From the NCBI GenBank assembly GCA_947650365.1, contig OX393557.1, positions 50,910,472 to 50,974,471 of the forward strand: a stretch of DNA of 64,000 nt, written 5' to 3'. The notes below the pieces were generated by a model. It had not been told where the DNA came from. It did not search any database and was given only the letters and a program-made list of their open reading frames with translations. The DNA is from Chamaelirium japonicum (taxonomy: Eukaryota; Streptophyta; Magnoliopsida; Liliales; Melanthiaceae). Shown piece after piece: positions 2,876-15,479 of this stretch; position 1 is the first letter of the stretch; every line of letters starts with the position of its first letter. A program made the translations under genes and the position numbers.

Positions 2876-3293
2876 AGCTTGGTTCTTTGTACGTTACCTA
2901 CATTTTAGATCTCTCTCTCTCTATCTCTTTTTATATATATATATATATATATATATATATATATATATATATATATATATATATATATATATATATATAT
3001 ATATATATATAGGGGCATGCTATAATGCGCATGTGGTAAGTGCGGCATCACACCGTAGCCGTCTGATGCATCCGCTGTGTGCATTGCATGCATGCAGCGG
3101 TGCATCAGATGGTTGTAGTGCGGTGCCGCACTTACCGCATTATAGCATACCCATATATATATATATATATATATATATATATATATATATATATATATAT
3201 ATATATATATATATATATATATATATAAAGAGAGAGAGAGAGAGAGAGAGAGAGAGAGATCTAAAATGTAGGTAACGTACAAAGAACCAAGCT
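2876..3293. repeat. Large inverted repeat enclosing TA/GA microsatellites and a foldback element
   Basis: A unique flank of about 37 bp, starting AGCTTGGTTCTTTGTACG at 2876, is repeated as a near-perfect reverse complement ending in AGCT at 3293. Between the arms lie (TC)n(TA)n, family A element 1, then (TA)n(GA)n. The right arm joins the next element (family B) at a shared AGCT and replaces that element's expected left end. This looks like a replicated or template-switched inverted duplication rather than a transposon terminus. Confidence 0.85.
3012..3152. mobile_element. TA-microsatellite foldback element, family A copy 1
   Basis: A 141-bp near-perfect palindrome. The left end GGGGCATGCTATAATGCG pairs with the right end CGCATTATAGCATACCC, and the inner GTAAGTGCGGCA and GTCTGATGCA segments pair likewise. 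It lies inside (TA)n on both sides (about 2935-3010 and 3153-3227). There is no coding capacity. The same palindrome recurs near 5138, 12034, 13194 and 52321, each in or beside TA repeats. Confidence 0.85.
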
Positions 3294-3672
3294 GTGAGCT
3301 GCGGTAGGAGAAAATGAGCTGCGGGTATTTTGACCCCTCTAGAAGTTTTGGAATTTGATGAAATTTGTGAGGGTGTCATCTTACCCTAGACAACATCCTC
3401 ACCAATTTTCATCAAATTTCAAAACTTCTAGGGGTGTCAAATGGTCGAAGCAAAATCAGCAAATTTTAACGGTGACTGCCAACGGCAGATTTTGCTTCGA
3501 CCATTTGACCCCCCTAGAAGTTTTGGAATTTGATGAAAATTGGTGAGGATGATCATCTTACCCTAGACAACACCCTCACCAAATTTCATCAAATTCCAAA
3601 ACTCTTAGGGGGCTCAAAATACCCGCAGCTCACTTTCTAAACCGGCAGCTCACAGCTCACTGTAACATTCCT
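3290..3672. mobile_element. TA-microsatellite foldback element, family B copy 1 (left end lost)
   Basis: The right end is complete (reverse complement AGGAATGTTACAGTGAGCTG). The left copy starts only at GCTGTGAGCTGCGG because the inverted repeat to its left overwrote about 16 bp. Inside are two sub-hairpins built on AGTTTTGGAATTTGATGAAA, with a TGATCATC turn, flanking a GTCGAAGCAAAAT centre. Followed by (TA)n at 3673-3714 and (GA)n at 3715-3767. Confidence 0.85.
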
Positions 3673-3767
3673 ATATATATATATATATATATATATATAT
3701 ATATATATATATATAGAGAGAGAGAGAGAGAGAGAGAGAGAGAGAGAGAGAGAGAGAGAGAGAGAGA

Positions 3768-4152
3768 GGAAACGGGAAATGAGCTGCCAGCCTATTTCGA
3801 AAAAATGGGCAGCCACCCATTTGATACCCTTAGGAGTCTTAGAATGTGCTGATTTTTTATGAGCATAAGTATCTTATCTTGGATAGAACACCCACAAAAA
3901 ATCAGCACATTCTAAAACTCTTAGGGGCATCAAATGTTAGAAGTTTTATCGAGCGTTCGTTGTCACTGTTAATCTGAAATATTATATTTGATGCCCCTAA
4001 AAGTTTTAGAATTTGCTGATTTTTTGTAGGTATTCTATCTAAGATAAGATGCTTATGCTCACAAAAAATCAGCACATTCTAAGACTCCTAGGGGCATCAA
4101 ATGGGTGGCTGCTCATTTCGCCGAAATAGGCCGCCAGCCTATACCCCGTATC
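3768..4152. mobile_element. TA-microsatellite foldback element, family C copy 1
   Basis: Terminal arms GGAAACGGGAAATGAGCTGC (left) and the reverse complement of the right end, GGATACGGGGTATAGGCTGG, continue into a shared CTATTTCG and CAGCCACCCATTTGAT. The interior has two sub-hairpins based on TTAGAATGTGCTGATTTTTT around a TTAATCTGAAAT centre. Flanked by (GA)n on the left and (CT)n(TA)n on the right. Confidence 0.85.
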
Positions 4153-4241
4153 CTCTCTCTCTCTCTCTCTCTCTCTCTCTATATATATATATATATATAT
4201 ATATATATATATATATATATATATATATATATATATATATA

Positions 4242-4624
4242 GGCTCGGGATCTAGGGACACGCTACTTTACCACAGCGTTAAGACACATCATCCAAATCG
4301 ATAGATAGAGGTTTCATAATTTATTTATTTTTTGTAAGGATGATCATCTTCGTTTAGATAACACATCCATAAAAAATCAGCACATTCTAAACCCGTTAGG
4401 TGCATCAAATCTAAAAAGATTTATCGATTGCTCATTTTAACAGCTAAATTGAAGGGAATATTTGATTAGTCTATAGGTTTTAGAATGTGTTGATTTTTTG
4501 CTGATGTGCTATCTAAGGCATGGTTATCACCCTTACAAAAAATCAACAAATTCTGAAACCTCTATTTAGGGTTTTGGAGATTTGTGTAATTCTGTGGCAA
4601 AGTAGCTTGTCCCTGGATCTTAAC
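4242..4624. mobile_element. TA-microsatellite foldback element, family H
   Basis: Left end GGCTCGGGATCTAGGGACAC and the reverse complement of the right end, GTTAAGATCCAGGGACAAGC, pair onward through GCTACTTT-CCACAG. The interior repeats the family C/E/G design: TTTTAGAATGTGTTGATTTTTT sub-hairpins around TTTTAACAGCTAAATTGAA. Directly flanked by (TA)n on both sides. Confidence 0.8.
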
Positions 4625-4706
4625 ATATATATATATATATATATATATATATATATATATATATATATATATATATATATATATATATATATATATATAT
4701 ATATAT

Positions 4707-5105
4707 GGGAAAAGGGAACACATTCTCCCGACCACCCAACACGCTAGTCCTCCCTTCAATTTATTTGGGTGCCACATAATAATTTTTAATTATATTTCTT
4801 TTAATGGATGGTCAATCCACTCTACTTTGATCAAGATTAAAAAAAAAAATTCTAAAAAAAAAACTTAAAACAACCCGATCAACGGTCGACAAATTTAACG
4901 GTAAACTGTAGCGTGCAAATAGCCCTTGTTATGGTTAATTTAAAAATGCCACTTGGCATATTTTTTTTCCAAATTTTTTTTCATGATCATTGTTAGGAGG
5001 GATGTACCCACCTTGACCAACCCCTAACCCCGGTTAAAAGTGCTCTGTGGCATCCAAATTGATGGGAGGAATAGCGTGTTGGGTGGTCGGGAGGACCGTG
5101 TTCCC
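4707..5105. mobile_element. TA-microsatellite foldback element, family D copy 1
   Basis: The arms pair over about 48 bp: GGGAACAC-x-x-TCTCCCGACCACCCAACACG on the left, and the same motif in reverse complement at 5055-5105. The interior is AT-rich with GATCAACGGTCGAC and TTTAACGGTAAAC near the centre and lacks the GAATGTGCTGA sub-hairpins. (TA)n lies on both sides. A second copy is at 12235-12638. Confidence 0.85.
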
Positions 5106-5137
5106 TATATATATATATATATATATATATATACAGA

Positions 5138-13446: not shown

Positions 13447-13566
13447 GGACTCAACAGGATCGCACATTCAAACAGGATCGCACTTGTGGGATTCTCTCTG
13501 TCTCTCTCTCTCTCTCTCGCTCTCTCTCTTTCTCTATATACACACACACACACACACACACACACA

Positions 13567-13931
13567 GAGGAATGTTACAGTGAGCTATGAGCTACGGAAG
13601 GAGAAAATGAGCTTCGATCTTTTTGACCACCCTAGAAGTTTTAGAATTTCGTTAAAATTGGTGGGTGTGTTGTCTAGGGTAACTTGATTATCCTCACCAA
13701 TTTTTTAGGAATTCCAAAACTTCTAGGGTCATCAAACGGTGGAAGCTTTATCCACCGTCCGTAGTAACCGTTAATTTTGCTTCTACCATTTGATGACCCT
13801 AGAAGTTTTGGAATTGTTTGAAAATTGGTGAGGATGATCATGTTACCATAGACAACACACCCACCAATTTTTACGAAATTCCAAAACTTCTAGGGTGGTC
13901 AAGATCGTAGCTCATAGCTCACTATAACATT
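13567..13931. mobile_element. TA-microsatellite foldback element, family B subgroup, copy 3
   Basis: Left end GAGGAATGTTACAGTGAGCT; right end AGCTCACTATAACATT. Sub-hairpins read TTTTGGAATT with GTTGTCTAGGGTAAC and TGATTATCCTCACC, distinct from the GATGAAA type. The same subgroup recurs at 51469-51854. Preceded by (CA)n and followed by (TA)n(GA)n (13932-14028). Confidence 0.8.
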
Positions 13932-14028
13932 ATATATATATATATATATATATATATATATATATATATATATATATATATATATATATATATAGAGAGA
14001 GAGAGAGAGAGAGAGAGAGAGAGAGAGA

Positions 14029-14415
14029 GGGTTGTTACAGTGAGCTATGGGCTGCCGGGGGGGAAATTGAGCTGCGGGTATTTTGACCCCCCATGAAGTT
14101 ATGTTATTTGATGAAATTTGGTGAGGTTGTTGCCTAGGATAAGATGATCATCCTCAGCAATTTTCATCAAATTCCAAAACTTCTAGGGGGTCAAATGGTC
14201 GAAGCAATTTTAATGGTGACTGCGGACGGTAGAAATTGCTTCGACCATTTGACTCCCCTAGAAGTTTTGGAATTTGATGAAAATTGGTGAGGATGATCAT
14301 CTTATCCTAAGCAACAACCTCACCAAATTTCATCAAATTCCATAACTTCTTGGGGGGTCAAAATACCCGCATCTCACTTTCCCCCCCGGCAGCCCACAGC
14401 TCACTGTGACAACCC
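14029..14415. mobile_element. TA-microsatellite foldback element, family B copy 4
   Basis: Ends GGGTTGTTACAGTGAGCTAT and, in reverse complement, AGGGTTGTCACAGTGAGCTG. Two GGAATTTGATGAAAATTGG sub-hairpins flank a CGAAGCAATTTTAATGGTGAC centre. (TA)n(GA)n on the left, (CT)n(TA)n on the right (14416-14482). Confidence 0.85.
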
Positions 14416-14482
14416 TCTCTCTCTCTCTCTCTATATATATATATATATATATATATATATATATATATATATATATATATAT

Positions 14483-14713
14483 AATGGATAAGGAGAAAAG
14501 TATTGAGAAAAACCTTAAAGTGCATGGTTGTACGTTAGCCGCACGTCAAGGAGGTTGCATCATAGACTTCTCATATATATATATATAATTGATAAATATA
14601 CATTTTTATTTATGATGTACATAAGCGACTGAAATGCGTTACTTGTGGATGTGGTTCTTACAAAATAATAGTAACCAGGAGATTAATTACAAGTAATGGA
14701 TTTAAGTCTCTTT
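14483..14713. other. Unique spacer between foldback elements
   Basis: About 230 bp not matching any foldback family, with a short (TA)n patch at 14572-14586. It may be pre-existing host DNA between two independent insertions. No gene seen. Confidence 0.5.
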
Positions 14714-14781
14714 TATATATATATATATATATATATATATATATATATATATATATATATATATATATATGTATATATATA

Positions 14782-15167
14782 GGAAATGGGAAATGAGCCG
14801 CCAACCTATTTCGGTGAAATGGGCAGCCACCCATTTGAAACCCTTAGGAGTTTTAGAATGTGCTGATTTTTTGTGAGCATAAGCACCTTATCTTAGATAG
14901 AACACCCACAAAAAATCCGCACATTCTAAAACACCTAGGGGCATCAAATGTTAGAAGTTTTATTGAACGTCCGTTGTAACCATTAATCTGAAATATAACA
15001 TTTGTTGCCTCTGAAAGTTTTAGAATGTGCTGATTTTTTATAGGTGTGCTATCTATGGTAAGGTGTTTATGCTCACAAAAAATTAGCACATTCTAAGACT
15101 CCTAGGGGTGTCAATTGGATAGCTGCCCATTTTTACGAAATAGACCGCCAGCCTATACCCCGTATCT
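14782..15167. mobile_element. TA-microsatellite foldback element, family C copy 2
   Basis: Left GGAAATGGGAAATGAGCCGC and a right end that reads AGATACGGGGTATAGGCTGG in reverse complement. Interior TTAGAATGTGCTGATTTTTT sub-hairpins around a TTAATCTGAAAT centre. (TA)n to the left (14714-14780) and (CT)n(TA)n to the right (15168-15219). Confidence 0.85.
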
Positions 15168-15479
15168 TCTTTCTCTCTCTCTCTCTCTCTCTCTCTATAT
15201 ATATATATATATATATATCAATTTTATCATTACAATTTTATAAAAATGTAATGCATCACAAGTCTACACAACATATATTATTTATTAAAGGGGAGATGAC
15301 ATAGCTAACAAATAAATAAGCATACATGCAATTGATTCCACAAAATATAAATCAATATGAACCCTAAGACCATCTATGTCTCATAATTACTTTTCTTGTG
15401 TTGCTTAAAAATATGTTTTAGTTGTCTAGCGAGAAACAAGAGCATGTGTGTGTCAGTGTGTGTGATTGTGTGTGTGTGT

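Follow-up and report, generated by a model that had tools for sequence, protein, structure and literature searches.

How do palindromic elements that lie side by side in the same arrays come to share an interior under ends whose likeness is at chance level? The question is raised by a 64,000-nucleotide stretch of the Chamaelirium japonicum genome (C9:50910472-50974471; this whole stretch is called the window below), from an assembly of 1,518,659,071 bases in 3,253 contigs. For positions 2876-15219 of the window, an earlier reading made from the sequence alone (the original prediction) had described foldback families with one nested-hairpin interior and different ends, and had offered as explanations either a common ancestor whose ends were repeatedly replaced or selection for the folded interior. 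Here we find that the ~390-bp palindromes have in common one ~280-bp interior, that three of the end kinds match the tips of three transposase-bearing Mutator-like elements (MULEs) of the same genome, and that the tree of the interiors conflicts with the ends. It is probable that these are composite non-autonomous Mutator-like miniature inverted-repeat transposable elements (MITEs), in which tips of different MULE groups enclose a shared passenger interior of separate descent, the two having been joined several times. The letters of elements and end families are our own and are not matched to those of the original prediction; L-numbers denote stretches taken from the window's own genome and C-numbers its contigs.

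A common interior under unlike ends

The elements concerned are as follows (window coordinates; no strand assigned; interiors placed by profile).

3276..3671, element B: B-type ends; interior 3329-3617
3767..4151, element C: C-type ends, matching MULE-C tips; interior 3821-4101
4241..4624, element D: D-type ends; interior 4304-4569
5366..5751, element E: E-type ends; interior 5424-5697
10605..10995, element G: B-type ends; interior 10661-10941
11597..11979, element H: H-type ends; interior 11649-11941
12669..13064, element I: I-type ends, matching MULE-I tips; interior 12723-13013, nested among B-type interiors
13566..13929, element J: B-type ends; interior 13623-13902
14029..14414, element K: B-type ends; interior 14082-14361; one long hairpin when folded
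14781..15172, element L: C-type ends; interior 14835-15114
50932..51290, element P: C-type ends, one end degraded; interior 50965-51240; outside 2876-15219
51471..51852, element N: B-type ends; interior 51524-51804; outside 2876-15219
51999..52318, element O, the most distant member: interior 52043-52292, 52 bits
about 63117..63517 (outer limits approximate), H-type element without microsatellites: interior 63179-63460
45021..45248, two partial interior copies: 45021-45105 and 45100-45248
2932..15218, microsatellite tracts between elements: mainly (TA)n with (GA)n or (CT)n
3012-3152, 5134-5287, 12020-12168 and 13190-13329, four A-type elements: short G+C-rich palindromes without the interior

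Twelve window elements supplied an interior profile of 282 model positions, which was run over the window and 54 loci (the 89 loci minus L003, L006, L007 and L009-L038, before L088 and L089). It matched 80 places, 68 of which span at least 225 of the 282 positions. Fourteen of these full-length copies are in the window, ten within 2876-15219 and four elsewhere, with the interior starts listed above; by their ends they are B (5), C (3), H (2), and D, E, I and O (1 each). The ends of all 68 copies are of types B (16), E (16), C (13), I (12), Q (3), D (2), H (2), R, S and O (1 each), the last copy being a deleted one (L074:2-96). Genome-wide, the interior 16-mer CTAGAAGTTTTRGAAT has 11,755 + 11,714 exact matches, and its reversed control 1 + 3.

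Within the interior the order is arm - loop - arm' - core - arm - loop' - arm', with four arms of ~40 bp that are alike within each element and with inverted edges (TTTGA ... TCAAA). Each of the ten full-length copies in 2876-15219 has the two sub-hairpins that the original prediction had described, with a AACCGTTA-type core or spacer between them. The hairpins-within-a-hairpin design proposed for them needs a correction as to the fold: K and E, the only elements folded (as single-stranded DNA), each give a single long hairpin (z -37 and -24), with which the sub-hairpins compete as an alternative made possible by the four like arms.

Every pair among twelve interiors (B, G, K, I, J, N, C, L, P, D, E and H) scores at least 30, against a maximum of 28 in 360 dinucleotide-shuffled controls. 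The interior of O also exceeds shuffles against C, L, P, D and E (30-39), and against B, G, K, I, J, N and H reaches only 17-24, under the null maximum of 28. The proposed kinship of the interiors therefore survives a control for composition, for O against those five alone.

The ends were compared by local scores because free gapping in global alignment made their identity the same as that of shuffles (0.76 and 0.77). End families were linked at a score of 30, the top score of 1,500 shuffles being 22. In the window, B, G, K, J and N have one set of ends in common and C, L and P another, so that the original wording, by which terminal arms differ completely, goes too far; between end families their similarity is indeed at the null level. 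The two parts of the element disagree in I and B: their interiors score 404, more than those of B and G (343), which have the same ends, yet the ends of I and B score 11 (null 95% 18).

The interior tree points the same way. In a tree of 67 rows, from which the deleted copy was excluded, families E, C, Q, D and H each form one clade. Family I has two places: L078, L082 and L084 stand outside a 28-row clade (support 100/100), inside which nine I copies lie with Q among B-ended copies. Constraint to one clade was rejected for I (approximately unbiased test, p 0.0003) and for B (p 0.011), both groups having been defined beforehand by their ends; the corresponding value for I and Q together (p 0.0006) comes from a test chosen after a first tree was seen. 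The interior tree needs 10 changes of end family where the minimum possible is 9, and exchange is therefore real but infrequent in this sample. In addition, the interior-bearing element of L002, with R-type ends, proves to have the A-type ends of the window (score 43, shuffled maximum 21), so that one end type occurs both with the interior (L002) and without it (the window's A elements). Because the tree conflicts with the ends, MULE tips match particular end families and the A/R ends occur with and without the interior, we regard ends and interior as having separate histories.

Tips of three transposon groups and insertion sites

Transposase-bearing MULEs with matching tips were found for end families I, Q and C, and MULE transposase, FAR1 and SWIM domains were called over the Pfam cut-offs for all three (MULE-I, MULE-Q and MULE-C). 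Over the part compared, the transposases of MULE-Q and MULE-C are 61% and 48% identical to that of MULE-I. One MULE-I copy (L039:514-9756) is 9.2 kb long, with (TA)n on both sides and 148-nt inverted repeats that are 85% complementary; its FAR1, MULE and SWIM domains are spread over several frames, and it shares one TA array with an I-ended MITE (L039:83-483). A second copy (L041:389-8502) lies between (TA)n tracts and holds a 412-aa frame with FAR1 and MULE domains. The left tip of this copy is tandemly duplicated (L041:389-540), as in MULEs with multiple terminal inverted repeats (TIRs). The two tips of MULE-C (L046 and L047) agree at 104 of 105 bases, and its FAR1, MULE and SWIM domains lie in a 731-aa frame; (TA)n stands on the left of the element, and on the right begins 28 bases past the tip. 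Two further MULE-C copies have a C-type tip beside microsatellites, in L088 (left) and L089 (right).

MULE-Q (L044) has a 774-aa frame with the same three domains, and its tip equals one end of a Q-ended MITE at 28/28 bases. The 31-base tip occurs at 19 places genome-wide (control 0), nine of them at most 10 kb from a transposase match, including both tips around C1:81705593 and around C2:30566811. Six more form three pairs 2.2-2.9 kb apart, and the remaining four fit neither group. The paired tips, which have no listed transposase nearby (C8:4897278-4900197, C9:62167543-62169735 and C11:16881127-16883437), are possibly ordinary deletion derivatives.

When 21 ends were aligned with the three MULE tips (500 shuffles each), the only end families above the null maximum were I on MULE-I (44; null maximum 25), Q on MULE-Q (41; 25) and C on MULE-C (36/37; 23/25). 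MULE-I tips thus match I ends and no other end family. C5, A and H3 on MULE-I (20) and K on MULE-C (19) were near misses, reached by 2, 2, 5 and 5 of the 500 shuffles, respectively. As three kinds of end match the tips of three transposons, the interior seems to have been re-fitted with ends more than once. Together with the I and B scores and the rejection of a single I clade, these matches speak for the first of the two explanations originally offered, a common ancestor with replaced ends; the second, selection for the folded interior, is possible.

Three further candidates for autonomous partners were rejected. L088, taken for a B-ended MULE, is the MULE-C copy mentioned above next to a truncated B element; E-type tips 8.1 kb apart belong to two separate E MITEs in one array; and E-type tips 2.4 kb apart in L043 belong to one E element interrupted by other sequence (L043:240-2360, outside the window, split by ~2 kb). 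Local alignment did not find the interior itself in MULE-I (score 23, below the maximum of 28 in 20 shuffles), nor did the profile find it in L041, L046, L047, the unmasked part of the MULE of L044 or the MULE parts of L088 and L089.

Exact or near-exact end words, whose counts are not counts of elements, occur genome-wide as follows, with every control at 0: E 1,949 + 1,981 (at most 3 mismatches), C 166 + 196, B 372 + 370, D 157 + 160 (at most 2 mismatches), and the end 29-mer of the I-ended MITEs 220 + 217 = 437. MULE-I ends are rare, with 6 exact matches.

The elements belong to the known microsatellite-targeted Mutator-like MITEs, of which SaTar and Ac-mMITE are examples, and like these have terminal inverted repeats. 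Flanks of 115 bases or more on each side were available for 41 copies; microsatellites were present on both sides in 30 of these, on one side in nine and on neither in two. Both microsatellite-free elements have a 10-bp target duplication, which is exact in L004 and identical at 9 of 10 bases around the window element with its interior at 63179 (flanks CCCTTATAAT and CCGTTATAAT). It should be noted that in 14 of 300 control trials unpaired flanks had some exact 10-mer in common, and the L004 duplication therefore rests also on its position at the edges of the element.

Within 2876-15219 the palindromes form two linear arrays, at about 2932-5821 and 10473-15218, in which (TA)n tracts separate them, frequently bordered on the inner side by (GA)n or (CT)n, and in which no element interrupts another. 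Other foldbacks of the arrays are M1 and M2 (4707-5105 and 12235-12638, alike each other) and F (11032-11489). Two long stretches between the arrays (~5930-6500 and ~7975-8520) are similar by eye, both starting near GGGACG...GGGGAAGCCGTCGTCGATGCTTC; the part between them is G+C-rich (0.54 GC at 6001-8000), and the whole is perhaps another mobile element, lying between the arrays. In L078:1-138, an I-ended element abuts the core of a second, C-like interior copy without a microsatellite between them, a junction that looks like a fusion by deletion.

Accounts of the shared interior

The composite model takes (TA)n microsatellites to be the insertion targets of the elements. The outermost ~50-55 bp at either side would be the terminal tip of a particular autonomous MULE group, and the inner palindrome of ~280 bp would be a passenger with its own descent. 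Each end family would presumably be moved by the FAR1-type transposase whose tips it bears. The passenger would have been joined to differing MULE tips on several occasions, and its lineage would therefore not be bound to one transposase. We infer both a route for this exchange, by repair or template switching within (TA)n arrays that hold MULEs beside MITEs, and its direction, that is, which partner moved onto which.

Several observations count against this model or narrow its base. No exchange intermediates were seen, and E, C, D, H and Q are each one clade, which makes exchange infrequent within the sample. No MULE for B, E, D, H, S or O ends was found among the loci compared. In a comparison of the 21 ends and the MULE-I tip with the first 30 MULE loci of 3.3 kb there was no convincing end match: K reached 28 (null maximum 26), S reached 29 in L023 (null 23) and some others lay 1-3 over the null maximum, and a score of 32 for G (null maximum 24) in L025, L028 and L029 was rejected as a G-rich gapped alignment. 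Nor was there an end match in L045, which is of the 772-aa type and has 2,231 of its 8,000 bases masked. Among C-type elements, the match of the ends of L to the MULE-C tip is marginal, with scores of 22 and 23 (null maxima 22 and 21), and those of P do not match it (13; null 22). The left side of MULE-Q is masked in L044. Finally, sampling was non-random: E and C copies were picked by their ends, and most others by an exact interior 16-mer within the first 8.3 Mb of one chromosome (C1). Of the 20 stretches picked there by an exact interior 16-mer alone, 15 have at least one copy, giving 18 copies (I 10, B 5, Q 2 and the deleted one).

A possible, if unlikely, alternative is that the interior has been positively selected as a module for transposition, with its four arms serving as accessory binding sites or as a cruciform for several FAR1-type transposases, so that any tips joined to such an interior would succeed. 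The arms are the best-conserved part of the interior between end families: in 21 pairs of seven distant representatives their identity is 0.69-0.75 (shuffled 0.50-0.53), compared with 0.62-0.63 for the loops (0.52-0.53) and 0.59 for the core (0.49). This and the likeness of the four arms within each element are what the module would predict, but copying between inverted repeats can also keep arms alike. Similarly, a consensus fold of 17 representatives has 101 pairs, of which 73 show at least one change on both sides; however, loops and core lie in opposite relative orientation in different families in the alignment, part of the both-side changes arises because they flip relative to each other, which inflates the count, and copying between arms would yield the same signal as selection. 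The module is also consistent with the rarity of MULE-I ends (6 exact matches) beside the 437 matches of the I-MITE end, and with reports, cited in the pineapple study (PMC8449440), of internal MITE sequences that boost transposition. Against it, short A-type-ended elements exist without the interior, and the arm motif was not found in the MULEs examined and is therefore not, by sequence, their own binding site.

The composite model can be carried further, to an interior that is a transferable hyperparasite. Such an interior would repeatedly take the tips of active microsatellite-targeting MULEs, with (TA)n arrays as the meeting place, would raise transposition by several transposase groups through its four arms and would outlive each of its helpers. 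We consider this extension speculative and rather doubtful.

It is improbable that the interior is an independent small transposon that was inserted into several different MULE-derived MITEs. The inverted edges of the interior would fit such an origin, as would the end type known with and without it. However, no 9-bp direct repeat across both junctions was present in any of 59 full-length interiors, and in each family the ends are of similar length on both sides of the interior, which repeated insertion at random points would not produce.

Very little speaks for ends that merely evolve faster than the interior with no replacement: ends are at the null level between families while interiors still align, but I and B have interiors at 404 over ends at 11, mean interior identities of 0.88 (Q to I) and 0.82 (I to B) go with unrelated ends, and the I, Q and C ends match different MULEs. 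That composition, foldback structure or microsatellite context alone makes the interiors alike is barely conceivable: all the elements are A+T-rich palindromes next to (TA)n, but the interior scores surpass those of dinucleotide-shuffled controls, and the non-member palindromes F, M1 and M2 from the same arrays are at or near null against the interior (highest M1-O 30 and M1-D 28; null maximum 28).

It is usual to define and trace MITE families by their ends. Since the histories of ends and interior are separate in the present elements, a classification resting on TIRs alone would split one lineage into several, and one resting on the interior would unite elements that depend on different transposases. 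As this genome also holds candidate sources of transposase for three of the end families, the elements offer a concrete case in which to ask how MITEs survive their transposons and whether their internal sequence plays a part. Arrays in which a MULE lies beside tip-matched MITEs, as in L039, are a natural place to seek exchange.

Comparison with known systems

The original prediction saw here the best candidate for an undescribed system. This part of it cannot be upheld, as microsatellite-targeted MULE MITEs in arrays (PMC5907723, PMC8449440) and coral MITEs with unlike ends (PMC2872659) have both been described. SaTar elements, known in guayule, rice, sorghum and citrus, are like those of the window small TIR elements between (TA)n or other microsatellites, in linear arrays of different families, with target duplications of ~10 bp outside microsatellites and related microsatellite-flanked MULEs (PMC5907723). 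In contrast to the elements here, their families are described as mutually unrelated, and the sections of the report used here make no mention of a shared interior under unlike ends (PMC5907723). Pineapple Ac-mMITE-1 and -2 are likewise microsatellite-associated Mutator-like MITEs, with target duplications of 9/10 bp (PMC8449440), and by their description resemble the present elements in forming clusters joined by microsatellites with GA/TC beside the ends (PMC8449440). They present the reverse case, in that the outer TIRs are common to both families; their authors state in the portion consulted that an autonomous element was not found (PMC8449440).

Other MULE-related systems share particular features. 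As described, Medicago MuTAnT, with a putative autonomous member (PMC4486113), and rice Micron (via PMC5907723) are MULE-related and target TA microsatellites; unlike the elements here, they are single families. Multi-TIR MULEs have inverted repeats within inverted repeats (PMC3310237), and the duplicated left tip of the L041 MULE is reminiscent of them. However, their inner and outer TIRs are described as alike over at least 100 bp (PMC3310237), whereas here ends and interior are different sequences and the interior arms are unlike the ends.

The nearest precedent found is the CMITEs of the coral Acropora, in which differing TIRs stand on a common, more conserved internal region (PMC2872659). 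One CMITE family is tied to an autonomous piggyBac transposon by its ends only, the origin of the interior being given in that account as unknown (PMC2872659). CMITEs are piggyBac elements of ~100 bp with TTAA targets, and their TIRs are said to retain a common 4-base motif (PMC2872659). In the elements described here we find 10-bp duplications, (TA)n flanks and MULE-matching tips instead of TTAA, in palindromes of ~390 bp with three end families traced to three transposon groups. Thus the mode of insertion and the form of the arrays were already known, and unlike ends on one interior were known from coral CMITEs. In the open-licence literature we met with no plant example in which several MULE tips enclose one interior; to that extent, the new points are that the case concerns plant MULEs, that a single genome ties three end families to three MULE groups, and that the conflict between ends and interior was tested on a tree.

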